Shown: positions 40,754-47,229 of the stretch, in pieces
Layout of the letters: every line of letters starts with the position of its first letter
How positions within the stretch are numbered: position 1 is the first letter of the stretch
DNA from: an uncultured Bacilli bacterium
Lineage (GTDB): Bacteria > Bacillota_I > Bacilli_A > RFN20 > CAG-826
DNA length: 47,397 nt
Reading direction: 5' to 3'
Assembly (NCBI GenBank): GCA_944375905.1
Contig: CALWAS010000013.1
Span: 1 to 47,397 of the forward strand
Notes under the pieces: generated by a model
What the model was told of the DNA's origin: nothing
Seen by the model: the letters and a program-made list of their open reading frames with translations, nothing else
Databases searched by the model: none
Translations under genes and position numbers: made by a program

Positions 40754-41155
40754 ATGGCATCTCAAGGCAGAAAAAACGTCCACGGCAAGGCCGGCGTCCG
40801 CTTCAAGGCCCCTTATACCGCCTCGAAGAACTACGCGATGCTCCGCAATGTCGTTAGCGAACTCATCGTCCATGGCGAAGTGACGGTTACGAGCGGCGTC
40901 GCCCCCGAGCTCGTCTCGCTCGCCGACAAGATGGTGACCCTCGCGAAGGAAGACACGCTCGCCAGCCGCCGCGAGGCGGCCCGCGTCCTCCGCGTCGGCA
41001 TCGTCGACGAGAAAGGCGTGAGCGCCCTCGACAAGCTCTTCAAGGAGCTTGGACCGAAGCACAAGGAAAGGGTCGGCGGCTATACCCGCACCTTCAAACT
41101 CGGCCCCCGGCGCGGCGACAATGCCGAACTCGTCCTCGTCCGTTGGTGCGACTAA
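40754..41155 (+). CDS. rplQ: Large ribosomal subunit protein L17
   Basis: 133-aa L17 near the tunnel exit, last gene of the superoperon. The N-terminus is diverged from the common MRHRKLGR (here MASQGRKNVHGKAGVRFKAP), but YAMLRNVVSELIVHGEVTVT, RVLRVGIVDEKGVSALDKLF and GGYTRTFKLGPRRGDNAELV are clear. AGGAG precedes the ATG. A strong terminator follows. Confidence 0.96.
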   Translation: MASQGRKNVHGKAGVRFKAPYTASKNYAMLRNVVSELIVHGEVTVTSGVAPELVSLADKMVTLAKEDTLASRREAARVLRVGIVDEKGVSALDKLFKELGPKHKERVGGYTRTFKLGPRRGDNAELVLVRWCD

Positions 41156-41175
41156 TCGCCATCGTTTCGAGCTTG

Positions 41176-41203
41176 AAGCCCCTTCGGGGGCTTTTTTGTT
41201 TCA
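41176..41203 (+). terminator. Terminator of the ribosomal superoperon
   Basis: Perfect AAGCCCC-TTCG-GGGGCTT hairpin (41176-41193) with a UUCG-type tetraloop followed by TTTTGTTTC. Confidence 0.93.
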
Positions 41204-41251
41204 ATAAGCGGGGGATTTGCTATAGTTTGACTTGGAAAGCAGGAAACCAAT

Positions 41252-41842
41252 ATGAAAAATCCGTCTCTTGTCTCGCTGTGGGTTTGGCTCGGACCGGTCG
41301 TTGCCGTAGTTGCCATCCTCCTAATTGCCCTCATCTTCGCCATTTGGTGGATTGTCACCCATAACCGCCTCAAGCGCTATCTCGTCAAGATCGACGAGGC
41401 CGCCTCGGGAATCGACGTCGCTCTCACAAAGCGCTATGACCTCTTGAACAAGGAAGTGGCCGCGGTGAAGGGATATGCCGCCCATGAGACGAAGACGCTC
41501 AAGGAAGTGACGATGGCCCGCCTTCCCCTCTCTTCCTCGATGAAGGAGAAAGGCGAATATTCCGGCAAGCTAAGCGAAGCCCTCGGGAGCGTTTCCTTAT
41601 TGGCCGAGAATTACCCCGTCCTCAAAGCGAGCGAGAATTTCCTCGCGCTCCAGCGTGAAATAAGCGAAAGCGAGGAAGAGCTCCAGTCGGCCCGGAGGAT
41701 CTACAACTCCAACGTCTCCTCCTACAACCAGGACATCGTGACTTTCCCGACTTCGATCGTCGCGAAAGCCTCAAATCTACTTGCCCGCGAGTTCTTCGAA
41801 GCCGACGAAAAGAAGAAAGAAGACGTGAAGATCGAGTTCTGA
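41252..41842 (+). CDS. LemA family protein
   Basis: 196-aa protein with one N-terminal membrane segment (about residues 14-36) and a helical LemA domain: HNRLKRYLVKIDEAASGIDV, LTKRYDLLNKEVAAVKGYAA, YPVLKASENFLALQREI, ARRIYNSNVSSYNQDIVTFP. LemA proteins are widespread anchored helical-bundle proteins of uncertain function. A TATAGT at 41221-41226 may be the -10 box, and AGCAGGAA lies before the ATG. A DUF3137 gene follows, a recurrent pair. Confidence 0.93.
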   Translation: MKNPSLVSLWVWLGPVVAVVAILLIALIFAIWWIVTHNRLKRYLVKIDEAASGIDVALTKRYDLLNKEVAAVKGYAAHETKTLKEVTMARLPLSSSMKEKGEYSGKLSEALGSVSLLAENYPVLKASENFLALQREISESEEELQSARRIYNSNVSSYNQDIVTFPTSIVAKASNLLAREFFEADEKKKEDVKIEF

Positions 41843-41849
41843 TCATTAG

Positions 41850-42827
41850 ATGGTGAGGCTTAGTAAAGAAGAAAGGGAAGAGCTCGAAAAGCTCCGCCTT
41901 TCCCTCCTTAAAAGGCAGCGGTTGGTCCGCATCCTTTCGCTCGTCTTCCTCGCGATCGGGATTTGCCTCATCGTCGGCTTCGGGATTGCCGCCGGCATCG
42001 AGGGGGATAGCCTCCTAAGCGCCTTCGGCGGCCTTGTCTGGCTCTTTGTCGGGCTATTGGTCATCGCCCTCGTTCTTTATTTCTATGGGGAGACTTTAAG
42101 CGACTCTTATTCCCGAAGATGCCAAAGCCTCATCGACGATAAGACGGTCGCCCTCCTTTTTCCGGGGGCCGTGGCGAAAAAGGACGGGGCGCTCGATTTG
42201 AGGGTCGTCATGGCCCCGGGATTCTTCTCGGCTCCCGACCGCTATTCGGGTCGCGATTACCTCGCTTCCATTTATGACGGCGTGCCTTTCGAAAGGGCCC
42301 ATTACAAGCTCGAGGAAGTCCACCATGACAAAAACGGCAGCCACTATTCGACCTATGCTTCGGGAACGATGTACCGCTTCGAACTCCGAAGACGCTTCGA
42401 TGGAACCCTCCGAATCATCGAAAACGACGGGATAAAGCTCAATTTGACCGATCTTGAGGCGGTGGAAACGGAATATATCCTTTTCAACAAGAAATTCCAG
42501 ATCCTTACCGACAACAAGGAAATGGCCTTTTTGATCCTTAGTCCGAGGGCGATGGAGAAGATCATGGAGGCCGAGCAGTCCTTTCGGGGCCGCTTCCACA
42601 TGGCTTTCGTCGCCGATCAGCTCTTTATCGCGATCGACGACGGGCTTTCGAGCGTGAAGCTCGATATCAGATCGCCGCTCGGAGAAAAGGAAATGGTCGA
42701 ATTGGAGATGGTGTCGGCCCTGCCGGCGAAATTCATTGACTTCTTCGGCCTTTCCGAAGGGAAGTTCTCCTTCGACGAAGGCAAGGCGGAGAAAGAAGAG
42801 ACAAAAAACCAAAATTCCTTTTTTTGA
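41850..42827 (+). CDS. DUF3137-like membrane protein, LemA partner
   Basis: 325-aa protein with a charged N-terminus, two membrane helices at about residues 30-50 and 60-82 separated by a short loop, and a large soluble C-terminal domain (AHYKLEEVHHDKNGS, VETEYILFNKKFQILTDNKE, FHMAFVADQLFIAIDDG). FNKKFxV.t-d and the final DFF segment resemble DUF3137 proteins often encoded next to lemA. Function is unknown. It starts 7 nt after lemA. Confidence 0.8.
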   Translation: MVRLSKEEREELEKLRLSLLKRQRLVRILSLVFLAIGICLIVGFGIAAGIEGDSLLSAFGGLVWLFVGLLVIALVLYFYGETLSDSYSRRCQSLIDDKTVALLFPGAVAKKDGALDLRVVMAPGFFSAPDRYSGRDYLASIYDGVPFERAHYKLEEVHHDKNGSHYSTYASGTMYRFELRRRFDGTLRIIENDGIKLNLTDLEAVETEYILFNKKFQILTDNKEMAFLILSPRAMEKIMEAEQSFRGRFHMAFVADQLFIAIDDGLSSVKLDIRSPLGEKEMVELEMVSALPAKFIDFFGLSEGKFSFDEGKAEKEETKNQNSFF

Positions 42828-42861
42828 GGAAAAAAGGCGCCTTTTGCCGGCAATTTTTTCC
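42828..42861 (+). terminator. Possible terminator after the lemA-DUF3137 pair
   Basis: GGAAAAAA (42828-42835) can pair with TTTTTTCC (42854-42861) around an inner GGCGCC/GCCGGC region. Composition is terminator-like but the fold is ambiguous. Confidence 0.4.
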
Positions 42862-42963
42862 GTTCCGGCTTCTTACTACGGCCGTCGTTGGAATATCAAT
42901 TACCGATATGCCGGAACCTTGTGGCCGAGTTGCCTGCTAAAAACGCTTACAGGACGGCAAAAG

Positions 42964-42991
42964 CCGGTATTTTTACGAAAATAAATACCGG
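42964..42991. repeat. 9-bp inverted repeat upstream of the hydrogenase operon
   Basis: CCGGTATTT (42964-42972) and AAATACCGG (42983-42991) with a 10-nt spacer, immediately before the promoter of hydC. Candidate regulatory site or attenuating hairpin. Confidence 0.6.
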
Positions 42992-43000
42992 TTTCCTTCG

Positions 43001-43041
43001 TTGTAATCGAAGATTACCGATATTAGAATGCTTTCGGTAAT
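43001..43041 (+). promoter_or_regulatory. Promoter and candidate operator of the hydrogenase operon
   Basis: -35 TTGTAA (43001-43006), 17-nt spacer, -10 TAGAAT (43024-43029). ATTACCGATAT fills the end of the spacer (43013-43023) and the inverted half TCGGTAAT lies at 43034-43041, at the predicted start site. A second ATTACCGATAT copy is at 42899-42909. This arrangement suggests repressor binding across the promoter. Confidence 0.6.
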
Positions 43042-43065
43042 TTTTTCCAAACAAGGAGGTTAACG

Positions 43066-43548
43066 ATGGCACTTCGAAGCGAAGCCAAAAAGGATATCGT
43101 CGCCATCTGCCAAGAGCATGCGAATGAGCCCTCTCCCCTCATGATCATTCTCGAGGAGATCCAGCGCAAGTACGGCTACATTCCCCTAGAGGCCCAGGAG
43201 GTCGTCTCAGAGGAGACCGGCATCCCGGTGGCCGAGATCTACGGGGTAGTCACTTTCTACAACTTCTTCTCGCTTACCCCGAAAGGAAAGTACGTGGTTG
43301 GGGTTTGCCTTGGCACGGCTTGCTACGTCAAGAACTCCCAAGCCGTCCTCGACGAATTCGAGAAGCAGCTTGGCATCAAGCCGGGCGAGACGAGCGACGA
43401 CGGCCTCTTCACCATCGAGGCCCTCCGTTGCATCGGCGCCTGCGCCCTTGCTCCCGCCGTTTCGATAAACGGCAAGGTCTATCCGATGGTCCAGCCCGGG
43501 CAAGTCGGTGAGCTCATCAAGGAATGCCGGGCCAAGGAGGAAGCCTAA
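43066..43548 (+). CDS. hydC: NuoE/HydC-type thioredoxin-like [2Fe-2S] subunit of the hydrogenase complex
   Basis: 160-aa small subunit homologous to complex I NuoE. The N-terminal helical bundle (LMIILEEIQRKYGYIPLEAQ) is followed by the thioredoxin-like [2Fe-2S] domain, with ligands in GVCLGTACYVK and LRCIGACALAP. With the next two genes it forms the HydABC arrangement. AAGGAGG lies before the ATG; its stop overlaps the hydB start by 1 nt (TAATG). Confidence 0.94.
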   Translation: MALRSEAKKDIVAICQEHANEPSPLMIILEEIQRKYGYIPLEAQEVVSEETGIPVAEIYGVVTFYNFFSLTPKGKYVVGVCLGTACYVKNSQAVLDEFEKQLGIKPGETSDDGLFTIEALRCIGACALAPAVSINGKVYPMVQPGQVGELIKECRAKEEA

Positions 43549-45422
43549 TGGAACGCATCTCAACGGCGGCGGCGCTCGACGAGAGCATCGCCAAATACAG
43601 CAAGGCCTTCGAAGACAAATTGTCAGGAAAGGGCGGCAAGCGGGCCGTCCTCATTTGCGGCGGCACCGGATGCATCGCGAACGGTTCCGACGATCTCGTG
43701 AAGGAATTCGAACGGCTCATCAAGGAAAACGGGCTGAACGCCCGGGTTACCTGCAACCACGTCGGCTGTTTCGGATTCTGCTCGCAGGGCCCCTTCGTCA
43801 AGATATTCCCCGAGGATACCCTCTACCGGAAAGTCACGCTTAAAGACGTCAAGCGGATTGTCGAGGAAGACCTCATCGGCGGGAACATCGTCGAGGATCT
43901 CCTTTACGTCGACCCGGTTACCCACGAGAAGGTAGCCCGGCAGGACGACATCAATTTCTACAAGAAGCAGAAGCGGATCTCGCTCCATGGCTGCTCTCTC
44001 ATCAATCCGGACTTCCTCGAGGAAGCCCTCGGCTATGATGGATTCAAGGCCCTGAAGAAGGTCCTTACCGAGATGAAGCCGGAGGATGTAATCGCCGAAG
44101 TGACGAAATCCGGCCTTCGCGGCCGCGGGGGCGCAGGCTTCCCGACCGGCAAGAAGTGGAGCTTTGCCGCCGCGGTAAAAAGCGACAAGAAGTACATCGT
44201 CTGCAATGGTGACGAGGGCGATCCCGGCGCCTTCATGGACCGCTCGATTCTCGAGGGAAACCCCTTCGAGGTCATCGAGGGCATGATGATCGCCGGCTAC
44301 GCCTACGGCGCCGACGAAGGCTATTTCTACGTACGGGCCGAATACCCGATTGCCGTCGAACGCCTCAAGCGGGCCATCGCCGACATGAAGGAAGTTGGCC
44401 TCCTTGGCAAGAACATCCTCGGCACCGGCTTCAATTTCGATGTCCATATCCGCGAGGGCGCCGGCGCCTTCGTCTGCGGGGAGGAAACGGCGCTCCTCAA
44501 TTCGATCGAGGGAAAGCGCGGCATGCCGCGTCCCCGTCCGCCCTTCCCGGCCATCAAGGGCCTTTGGGGAAAGCCGACTTGCGTCAATAACGTCGAGACC
44601 CTTGCCCAAGTCCCTTATATCATCCGGGTCGGAGCCGAGGAATACGCCAAGGTCGGAACCCAAGGAAGCAAAGGGACGAAGGTATTTGCCCTCGGCGGCA
44701 AAATCAACAACGTCGGTCTCGTCGAGGTCCCGATGGGAACGACCTTGAGAACCCTCATATACGACATAGGCGGCGGCATCCCGAACGGGAAGAAGTTCAA
44801 GGCCATCCAAACCGGCGGCCCTTCCGGCGGCTGCCTCACCGAGGAAGACCTCGATACCCCGATCGACTACGATACCCTCGTGGCTAGGGGCTCGATGATG
44901 GGCTCGGGCGGAGCGATCGTCATGGACGAGGACAACTGCATGGTCGACGTCGCCCTCTTCTACATGGACTTCATCTGCTCGGAAAGCTGCGGGAAGTGCA
45001 CGCCTTGCCGGATTGGGACGAAGCGCCTCCACGAGATGCTGCAGACGATCGTCAACGGCACGGCTACCGAGAAGACGCTCGAAGACATGAAGGCGCTAGC
45101 CTCGGTTACGCAGAAGGGCTCGCTGTGCGCTCTCGGGCAAACGGCAGCCAACCCGATTCTCTCGACGATGGGCAAGTTCCCCGAGGAATACGAGGCTCAC
45201 GTCAAGGAAAAGCGGTGCCCGGCCCACGTCTGCAAGAAGCTTACCCGTTACCATATCGTTCCGGAGCTTTGCAAGAAGTGCTCGCTCTGCGCCCGCAATT
45301 GCCCGGTGCAGTGCATCTCTGGCGTGCCTGGCAAGGAACCGTACCACATCGACCAAAGCAAGTGCATAAAGTGCGGCGCCTGCATGGCTGGCTGCCGCTT
45401 CCATGCGATCGTGAAGGAGTAG
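43548..45422 (+). CDS. hydB: NuoF/HydB-type flavoprotein subunit (NADH, FMN, iron-sulfur)
   Basis: 624-aa NuoF-like subunit. Domains in order: thioredoxin-like [2Fe-2S] domain (about 30-115; CGGTGC and CNHVGCFGFC), FMN/NAD(H) domain (GLRGRGGAGFPTGKKW, CNGDEGDPGAFMDRSILE), SLBB region, NuoF [4Fe-4S] site ESCGKCTPCRIG, and a C-terminal two-cluster ferredoxin (CKKCSLCARNCP, CIKCGACMAGC). This is the HydB layout of electron-bifurcating hydrogenases, where the flavin couples NAD(H) and ferredoxin. Start 43548 overlaps the previous stop; the frame is open from 43524. Confidence 0.94.
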   Translation: MERISTAAALDESIAKYSKAFEDKLSGKGGKRAVLICGGTGCIANGSDDLVKEFERLIKENGLNARVTCNHVGCFGFCSQGPFVKIFPEDTLYRKVTLKDVKRIVEEDLIGGNIVEDLLYVDPVTHEKVARQDDINFYKKQKRISLHGCSLINPDFLEEALGYDGFKALKKVLTEMKPEDVIAEVTKSGLRGRGGAGFPTGKKWSFAAAVKSDKKYIVCNGDEGDPGAFMDRSILEGNPFEVIEGMMIAGYAYGADEGYFYVRAEYPIAVERLKRAIADMKEVGLLGKNILGTGFNFDVHIREGAGAFVCGEETALLNSIEGKRGMPRPRPPFPAIKGLWGKPTCVNNVETLAQVPYIIRVGAEEYAKVGTQGSKGTKVFALGGKINNVGLVEVPMGTTLRTLIYDIGGGIPNGKKFKAIQTGGPSGGCLTEEDLDTPIDYDTLVARGSMMGSGGAIVMDEDNCMVDVALFYMDFICSESCGKCTPCRIGTKRLHEMLQTIVNGTATEKTLEDMKALASVTQKGSLCALGQTAANPILSTMGKFPEEYEAHVKEKRCPAHVCKKLTRYHIVPELCKKCSLCARNCPVQCISGVPGKEPYHIDQSKCIKCGACMAGCRFHAIVKE

Positions 45423-45426
45423 GAAC

Positions 45427-47229
45427 ATGGCCGAAAAGATCAACGTCAAAATCGAAGGTCGTATCTACGAAGTAGATGCTTCCCTTACCGTGCTCGAGGC
45501 CTGCCGCTCGGTTGGCTATCGGATTCCGACCCTTTGCTATTGGAACCACGGGCACAATTCGCTTGCGAGCTGCCGCGTTTGCCTCGTCGAGATCAAGTCG
45601 AGCCGGGGTTCGCGCCTCTATGCGAGCTGCGTCTATCCGGTCAAGGAGGTCCCGGCGGAGAAGGGATTCGAAATCCTCATTTCGTCGCCGATGGCGGTGG
45701 AAGCCCGCAAAACCTCGGTGGAACTCCTGCTTTCCAACCACAGCAAGGAGTGCCAGACCTGCGTTAAGAACGGCCAGTGCGAACTGCTTCACGTCGCCTC
45801 GATCACCGGAGCCGAAGACCGCAAATACATCGGTCAGATGACTCCGACGAGCAAGGACGAACTAGCCCCTGGCATCGTCCGCGATTCATCCAAGTGCATT
45901 CTTTGCGGCCGCTGCATCGAGCGGTGCAAGGAAGCGACCGGCATCGGAATCCTCGGCTTCGAGAACCGTGGGTTCAAAACGGTCGTGAGCCCGATTGCCG
46001 GCCGCAGCTTCGCGAAGGTTCCGTGCATCCAATGCGGCCAATGCATCGAGGTTTGCCCGACCGGCGCCCTTTCCGAAAAACGCGAAATCAACAAAATCGA
46101 CGAAGCGAAGAAGGCTGGAAAGTTCCTGGTCGTTCAGACGGCTCCGGCCGTCCGGGCCGCGATCAGCGAGGAATTCGGCAAGAAGATCGGCGAGGAGAAC
46201 GGCGAGGGAAAGATGGTTGCCGCGCTCCATCGCCTTGGCTTCGACCGCGTCTTCGACGTCAACTTCGGGGCCGATTTGACCATCGCCGAGGAATCGCAGG
46301 AACTCATCAACCGCATCGTCAAGAAGACGGCGCCGCTCCCCCAGATCACTTCCTGCTCGCCCGGTTGGGTCAACTACATGGAGTTCTTCTACGAAGACCT
46401 CATACCGCATGTCTCGACCTGCAAGTCTCCCCATGAGATGCAGGGCGCCATCACCAAGACCTACTTTGCCGAGAAACACGGCCTCAAGCCCGAGAACATT
46501 TACGTCGTATCGATAATGCCGTGCACCGCCAAGAAAGGCGAAAAGGAACGTCCGGAGAACCAAGCCATCAAGGGAATCCCGGACGTCGACTGCGTCCTCA
46601 CGACCCGCGAGCTTGCCCTCTTGATCAAGAGGAGCGGCATCCTCTGGGACAGCCTCCCGGAAGAGAAGTTCGACGACGATCTCCTTGGCGAATACACCGG
46701 GGCCGGGGCCATCTTCGGAGCAAGCGGCGGCGTCATGGAAGCCGCGCTCAGGACCGCCTACCACACCCTTACCGGGAAGGAACACGAACCCGTTGACTTC
46801 AGGGAAGTCCGGGGCCAGGCCGGGGTGAAGACCGCCGAGGTGGACCTCGGGGTTGGCAAGTTCAAAGTCGCCGTTGCTTCGGGAATGAAGAACGCCAAGC
46901 CGCTTCTCGACGAAGTAAGGGCCGGGACTTCGCCCTATGCCTTCATCGAGATCATGGGCTGCCCGGGCGGATGCATCAACGGTGGCGGACAGCCGTTCGT
47001 CAAGCCATCGCTCCTCGACCGCGAATCTCCCGACATTCTCGACACCTACCGGGAAAAGCGGGCGGCCATCCTCTATTCGATCGATGAACGGAAGGCGATC
47101 CGCCAATCCCACAACAACCCGGACGTCATCAGGCTTTACGATGACTATCTCGGGAGCTATGGCTCGGAGAAGGCGGAGGAAATCCTCCATACTTCCTATC
47201 GCTTAAACCGCGAACGCTATCCGAAGTAA
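45427..47229 (+). CDS. hydA: [FeFe] hydrogenase catalytic subunit HydA
   Basis: 600-aa hydrogenase evolving or oxidising H2. N-terminal [2Fe-2S] domain (Cys37, 49, 52, 68), a His-Cys3 [4Fe-4S] domain (HSKECQTCVKNGQC), two [4Fe-4S] clusters (CILCGRCIERC, CIQCGQCIEVC), then the H-cluster domain: TSCSPGW (Cys310), MPCTAKKGE (Cys366) and MGCPGGCINGGGQP (Cys512, Cys516). The first motif has Ser where many monomeric enzymes have a second Cys. Gene order hydC-hydB-hydA points to an NADH/ferredoxin-linked bifurcating complex. Maturases HydEFG are not in the window. Confidence 0.95.
   Translation: MAEKINVKIEGRIYEVDASLTVLEACRSVGYRIPTLCYWNHGHNSLASCRVCLVEIKSSRGSRLYASCVYPVKEVPAEKGFEILISSPMAVEARKTSVELLLSNHSKECQTCVKNGQCELLHVASITGAEDRKYIGQMTPTSKDELAPGIVRDSSKCILCGRCIERCKEATGIGILGFENRGFKTVVSPIAGRSFAKVPCIQCGQCIEVCPTGALSEKREINKIDEAKKAGKFLVVQTAPAVRAAISEEFGKKIGEENGEGKMVAALHRLGFDRVFDVNFGADLTIAEESQELINRIVKKTAPLPQITSCSPGWVNYMEFFYEDLIPHVSTCKSPHEMQGAITKTYFAEKHGLKPENIYVVSIMPCTAKKGEKERPENQAIKGIPDVDCVLTTRELALLIKRSGILWDSLPEEKFDDDLLGEYTGAGAIFGASGGVMEAALRTAYHTLTGKEHEPVDFREVRGQAGVKTAEVDLGVGKFKVAVASGMKNAKPLLDEVRAGTSPYAFIEIMGCPGGCINGGGQPFVKPSLLDRESPDILDTYREKRAAILYSIDERKAIRQSHNNPDVIRLYDDYLGSYGSEKAEEILHTSYRLNRERYPK

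Follow-up and report, generated by a model that had tools for sequence, protein, structure and literature searches.

Predicted Rex-type half-sites with altered letters preceding an [FeFe] hydrogenase operon of uncultured Bacilli

The promoter of a hydrogenase operon in an uncultured Bacilli genome carries several related short repeats, and the question is which factor reads them. The window analysed here, a whole stretch of 47,397 bases, is contig C13 of a 1.22-Mb genome (G000) that is 97% complete. Relatives close to this genome are uncultured Bacilli/Firmicutes records; Candidatus Alloenteromonas pullicola is among the species-named relatives listed, with a HydC identity of 71%. Downstream of a LemA/DUF3137 pair lie hydC, hydB and hydA, all on the + strand. 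The first gene of the operon, hydC (43066-43548), encodes a NuoE-like 2Fe-2S subunit (Pfam PF01257, 1.1e-48), and a ribosome-binding site, AGGAGG, was read in front of it at 43054-43059 (+ strand). The NuoF-like NADH/FMN subunit is encoded by hydB (43548-45422; PF01512, 5.6e-47), which scored 495 bits against TIGR01959 and did not reach the cut-off of 558.65. The likely start of hydB is the ATG at 43548 (MERIS..., with a TAATG overlap with the hydC stop) rather than the mechanical ORF start at 43524. An [FeFe] hydrogenase, group A6-like, is encoded by hydA (45427-47229), which matched PF02906 and TIGR02512 (490 bits, above the cut-off of 405.95). By these profile matches hydCBA is an [FeFe] hydrogenase operon of the NADH-dependent A6 type, the group A6 model NF040763 (752.8 bits) falling just under its cut-off of 765.

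The positions of the repeats given in a preliminary description were borne out. ATTACCGATAT occurs at 42899-42909 and 43013-43023, TCGGTAAT at 43034-43041, and the two arms of an inverted repeat, CCGGTATTT and AAATACCGG, at 42964-42972 and 42983-42991. The last two half-sites flank the -10 box at 43024-43029, as had been stated. Four copies of the 8-mer ATTACCGA are present in the window, three of them within the 143-nt stretch at the hydC promoter; 0.98 copies are expected per whole window, and four copies were reached in 2 of 100 shuffles. The promoter (43001-43029, + strand), identified by a promoter scan and by conservation, consists of a -35 box, TTGTAA, at 43001-43006, a 17-nt spacer and the -10 box TAGAAT. 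It is the sole promoter-like pair in 41000-43600. Shuffles give a mean of 1.0, and because they yield as many promoter-like pairs, the promoter call rests mainly on conservation.

The main candidate for a Rex operator is TCGGTAATTTTTTCCAAA (43034-43051, + strand), an 18-mer that agrees with TCGGTAA-N4-TTACCGA at 11 of 14 positions, i.e. with three mismatches, and in which one half of the 7-4-7 palindrome is degenerate. It begins 4 nt past the -10 box and spans the expected transcription start. The half-site ATATCGGTAAT at 43013-43023 (- strand) lies between the -35 and -10 boxes; its core ATTACCGA is invariant in the window and four relatives, and a good partner at N4 is absent. Farther upstream are the inverted pair CCGGTATTT-N10-AAATACCGG (42964-42991), the homologue of TCGGTAAT-N13-ATTACCGG in the four relatives, and a distal half-site ATATCGGTAAT (42899-42909, - strand), through which the best 18-mer reaches 10/14. 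Matches to TCGGTAA-N4-TTACCGA with three mismatches are at noise level genome-wide (28 versus 63 for the reversed control). We also scored the hydC promoters with a matrix trained on 17 rex and adhE operators of 11/14 or more, one per group; hydC was excluded from the training and weak rex sites were not entered. The top site in the window's promoter was 43034-43051 (12.1 bits, p ≤ 0.007 against 300 shuffles). Across the hydC promoters p ≤ 0.03 was obtained in 11 of 21, the other 10 ranging from 0.056 to 0.98. The unit proposed in the preliminary description, ATTACCGA-N13-TCGGTAAT, did not hold up: its spacing is 12, 13 or 14 nt among relatives, and the exact pair with a gap of 8 to 18 nt is found once in the genome. 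Since ATTACCGA-N8..18-TCGGTAAT has no second copy there, this unit was dropped in favor of the half-site. Because the matrix selects 43034-43051 and the N13 spacing varies, we regard that site as the better-supported operator.

Conservation upstream of hydC was examined in relatives. Of 78 related genomes, 56 gave a HydC match, in a few cases a weak one, and 80 of 263 places were kept for HydC relatives in named records. The promoter and the half-site cores show little variation when the window is compared with its four close relatives; the -35 box and the TCGGTA of 43034-43051 are invariant and the -10 box is largely conserved. The block common to the four close species contains the upstream pair TCGGTAAT-N13-ATTACCGG, the promoter, ATTACCGA between the -35 and -10 boxes and TCGGTA(A/T)T after the -10 box; the window's CCGGTATTT/AAATACCGG differs from the relatives' upstream pair on both arms. 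Many of the more distant congeners have TCGGTAA or a near variant upstream of -35, and some have nothing. For a count, 45 hydC promoters (21 genus-like representatives and 24 others) were chosen from 59, with 14 near-duplicates left out. Exact TCGGTAA was present in 10 of the 21 (300 shuffles: mean 0.73, at most 4) and in 1 of the 24 (shuffle mean 0.52), a contrast that is partly due to our own sorting because HydC identity is similar in some of the 24. A genus label is lacking for L056, L061, L063 and L066, four of the 21, which we assigned on HydC identity (71-73%) and on the likeness of their promoters. When both sets were pooled, the count was 11/45 compared with about 1.25 expected. The TCGGTA core is missing in 7 of the 21. 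Judged from these alignments and counts, the element at the hydC promoter is a real conserved regulatory element.

In the window's genome, two places and no others lie within two mismatches of TCGGTAA-N4-TTACCGA. These are TCGGTAAACATTTACCGG and TCGGTAATTTTTTATGGA, and both are in the rex-adhE promoter (L004). A search with ATTACCGATAT, allowing one mismatch, gave 17 genome matches, of which four are intergenic: two at hydC, one at rex (L004) and one in the der-hup region (L009). The other 13 were rejected as noise because they fall within open frames, one of 74 aa (L007) and the rest of 90 aa or more. The preliminary description had also held that the repeats do not resemble the common Rex site. 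This is correct for the letters, which differ, but not for the layout: the best genomic copies have the 18-bp 7-4-7 arrangement of Rex sites and lie in the promoter of rex itself.

The motif was followed through the genus. A degenerate palindrome was found at 17 places in 37 congeneric genomes, nine before rex and five before adhE; as the palindrome was drawn from rex and adhE sites, recovery of those is not independent, and the near-absence elsewhere is the informative part. The remaining places are at an Fe-ADH (L308), before an NAD/FAD-binding oxidoreductase-like gene (L208) and inside a coding frame (L306). Over both strands the scan returned 32 rows, compared with 11 for the reversed control. 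Among 30 rex promoters (29 from the genus plus that of G067) the best match was 12-14/14 in 10, 11/14 in eight, 10/14 in six and 8-9/14 in six. The operator is perfect (14/14) in G004, G007 and G029, and the promoters of G024, G014 and G036 reach only 8/14. Outside these 30, the rex promoter of G040 carries a near variant, TCAGTAA-N4-ATACTGA. A match to adhE was obtained in 26 of 37 genomes; 15 adjoin rex, nine are unlinked and two are distant (G010, 50% and G027, 30% identity). All nine unlinked adhE genes, which are at least 75% identical, have a 12-14/14 site, while the distant adhE of G010 has none (best 7/14). Before class II fba a clear site was seen in G026, G034 and G015 only and is absent in most species. 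By our reading, the operator begins 3-5 nt after the -10 box at hydC in the window's close group, at rex in G000, G004, G007 and G029, and at adhE in G013, G016 and G024, a position that suits a repressor. The preliminary description had proposed a transcription-factor site tied to redox metabolism, perhaps redox-dependent. The recurrence at rex and adhE promoters supports this proposal; conservation upstream of hydC in relatives was found together with recurrence near other promoters (rex, adhE and, in three species, fba).

The canonical Rex motif, TTGTKAA-N4-TTMACAA, had no site at up to one mismatch in the window's genome. At the same threshold in the 37 genus genomes, no match fell at the coordinates of rex, adhE or hydC when these were compared by eye. 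The exact TCGGTAA palindrome was found class-wide in 3 of 395 genomes, one of them in the genus (rex of G029). The two others have no obvious Rex target, one match looking like a convergent terminator, so a wide spread of the exact palindrome is unsupported.

We examined the Rex protein itself. The rex gene of the window's genome (G000:C6:38550-39182) is directly followed by adhE. Its product scored 239.6 bits against the Rex equivalog model NF003994 (cut-off 130), has 3wg9 as its closest solved chain (E 9.8e-38) and contains the N-terminal DNA-binding domain PF06971 and the Rossmann CoA/NAD-binding domain PF02629, both above cut-off. In T. maritima numbering, the NAD(H) site is mostly retained in the genus: GxGxxG and D115 are present in 30/30 proteins and Y100 in 28/30, with F in two. 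D191, in the available text of PMC8836258 the partner of Tyr100 when NADH is bound, is replaced by N in 30/30. The DNA contacts described there for T. maritima Rex include R48, K49 and, in the wing, R60, G61 and Y64 (PMC8836258). All 30 proteins keep K49 and 27 of them keep R48 (K48 in G004, G007 and G029), in line with the conservation of G3 and A6 in the half-site. The wing residues are not kept; P60 and R64 occur in 30/30 and K/R61 in 27/30, whereas the three Rex proteins of known structure have R or Q at 60 and Y at 64. Position 60 varies among canonical Rex proteins (Q in 3wg9; Q60 in T. ethanolicus Rex). As far as the sequences tell, the changed residues mark a divergent wing and not a protein outside the Rex family. 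R60 contacts T4 of the T. maritima site (PMC8836258, in the part available), and by our alignment of both sites this position reads C here; the tie between wing and operator is suggestive only. Most residue changes do not track the operator change, because the same perfect operator is found in G004, G007 and G029, whose Rex proteins carry K48, A52 and G61. P60 is shared with Rex of the order's family f3, and R64 with G038, G040 and G045 of this genus's own family; Rex of f3 and f8 has Y64, as in the three structures.

The site, its conservation, the motif common to the rex, adhE and hyd promoters, the identity of Rex and its altered wing were computed. The repeats are very probably half-sites (TCGGTAA) of the NAD+/NADH-sensing repressor Rex acting on hydCBA, whose specificity would have shifted in this genus from TTGTKAA to TCGGTAA with the 18-bp 7-4-7 layout kept. 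We assign them to Rex because this layout and the gene set (rex, alcohol dehydrogenase, [FeFe] hydrogenase and aldolase) are those known for Rex. We infer that Rex binds here, that NADH releases it, that it represses and that the half-sites cooperate, as follows. At low NADH, Rex would occupy 43034-43051 over the expected transcription start and block hydCBA, probably aided by the half-sites between the -35 and -10 boxes and upstream; a rise in NADH would release Rex and the hydrogenase would be made. The hydC sites are half-site-like (11/14), so the mode of Rex binding proposed there is tentative.

Rex operators of this layout have been described in other bacteria. The available texts give TTGTGAA-W4-TTCACAA for S. 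aureus, where a change of spacer length impairs binding (PMC2883068), and TTGTTAA-N4-TTAACAA for Clostridium (PMC8457756). They report control by Rex of [FeFe] hydrogenase, aldolase and rex itself (PMC8457756; PMC8579813) and include alcohol dehydrogenase in the gene set (PMC8457756; PMC8579813; PMC6018154). The operators at rex and adhE here share with those of S. aureus and Clostridium a length of 18 bp, inverted 7-mers and a 4-nt spacer. Like known Rex operators, the sites of this genus stand at or directly past the promoters of rex, adhE and hydrogenase, and in a few species that of aldolase. They differ in the 7-mer, TCGGTAA, with T to C at position 2 and T to G at position 4, in having one good half per site at hydC, and in that some promoters add a tandem half-site 8 bp farther upstream. 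As in Clostridium thermocellum and Caldicellulosiruptor bescii, a Rex-type site precedes the [FeFe] hydrogenase operon and rex; in those species the operator matches or resembles the clostridial consensus and, in the available texts, binding was tested (PMC8457756; PMC8579813; PMC6391272), while here it is predicted. A C. bescii Rex site upstream of -35 is thought to activate (PMC8579813, in the part available), so repression need not hold in the many congeners whose half-site is upstream of -35. Our literature search found no TCGGTAA Rex operator; a similar variant may be recorded in RegPrecise or in a comparative Rex study (Ravcheev 2012). The function of the element is ordinary; its letters are new within the literature searched, and its architecture is possibly new too. 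A standard scan with TTGTKAA-N4-TTMACAA would miss the rex, adhE and hyd sites in this genus of uncultured gut Bacilli. If the Rex reading is true, a sensor for which several DNA-bound crystal structures exist has switched its specificity in nature, with many related species on either side; this would be a tractable case of a global regulator and all its sites changing together, and would explain the coupling of H2 and ethanol formation to NADH in small-genome bacteria.

A transcription factor other than Rex could read TCGGTAA and control rex, adhE and hyd together. Half-sites are also found in tandem at 8 bp and separated by 12-15 nt, which is unusual for Rex, and the hydC sites are more half-site-like than those at rex and adhE. 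In addition, G028 and G008 have rex and yet only 8/14 at hydC; the same 8/14 is seen in G010, G012 and G022, where rex was not found, so that the contrast by presence of rex is weak; G012 and G022 are only 84% complete. However, the strongest sites lie in rex's own promoter with the Rex layout, and the target set is that of known Rex. Moreover, G067, from another family, has a genus-type Rex (L135, G067:C1:139701-140330; 67% identical) preceded by the same operator (12/14), possibly through horizontal transfer of gene and site or else a mis-binned contig. We consider a different factor unlikely.

It is far less likely still that the repeats act in RNA, with the leader segment 43010-43046 serving for attenuation or intrinsic termination (a stem followed by TTTTTT) and 42961-42994 forming a second hairpin. 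Folding of 42955-43000 gave z -3.5 (0/200 shuffles as good) and that of 43000-43066 gave z -2.1 (10/200 as good), and a T-run does follow the 43010-43046 stem. The loop of that stem, however, is long at 13 nt and holds the only promoter-like -10 box, the stem is broken in three relatives (TCGGTATT versus ATTACCGA) with loops of 12 to 14 nt, and many congeners have a half-site lacking an inverted partner. A terminator scan with a loop limit of 8 does not list 43010-43046. Rfam at gathering thresholds matched only a tRNA in the whole window and nothing at the hairpins, so that no known riboswitch was found. The least credible reading is that a short word recurs in these promoters by chance, common though three-mismatch matches are, given the excess of TCGGTAA in the hydC promoters over the shuffle maximum, a core that is invariant in the window and four relatives and common to rex and adhE, and the presence of CGGTAA/TTACCG in only 2/28 fba upstream regions, both of them candidate targets.

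Within the Rex interpretation, the arrangement of half-sites has features of its own. In the window's clade the 7-mer halves of the upstream pair are separated by 14 nt (in the window) or 15 nt, which exceeds N4 by about one turn of the helix. In 7 of 37 promoters, including the rex promoter of the window's genome, the inverted pair is preceded by a third half-site in tandem at an offset of exactly 8 bp (shuffle mean 0.01, maximum 1 in 200 rounds); the 37 promoters (19 hydC and 18 rex) were selected and the test was run after examples had been seen. Among the remaining tandem offsets between 5 and 15, only 13 (two) and 14 (one) were represented. In some species tandem half-sites at 8 bp take the place of the inverted pair, and G009-type species have the tandem form only. 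One two-fold Rex dimer does not explain the tandem form; overlapping dimers might. We put forward only tentatively, as a doubtful extension, that the genus Rex combines a new DNA alphabet (TCGGTAA) with a new architecture, in which the 8-bp tandem third half-site and the clade's half-sites one helical turn wider would form arrays bound by two overlapping dimers or a higher oligomer.

Other repeats were seen near these promoters. Boxes of the form GGAAACGCTTTCA, which we take to be cre-like, stand beside or overlap Rex-type sites at rex (L004 1504-1532) and in the adhE promoters L216 (G024) and L221 (G014), which suggests joint control by CcpA and Rex. The der-hup intergenic region (L009 1347-1543, G000:C12) has three TTACCGA half-sites and a cre-like box upstream of the HU gene; its best 18-mers reach 10/14. 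In other genera the region upstream of hydC (L091, L092) has GTTAAC-N5-TTAAC-like inverted repeats and GTAAGCGCTTTTC boxes, perhaps those genera's own Rex- and CcpA-type sites. Finally, tandem repeats of the ATCGGTAAATCGGTAAA type occur in the rex promoters L142, L143, L148, L149, L152 and L153 right after the -10 box and within about 22 nt of the start codon, and by eye they recur about 73 nt upstream in the apparent terminator hairpin of the upstream gene.
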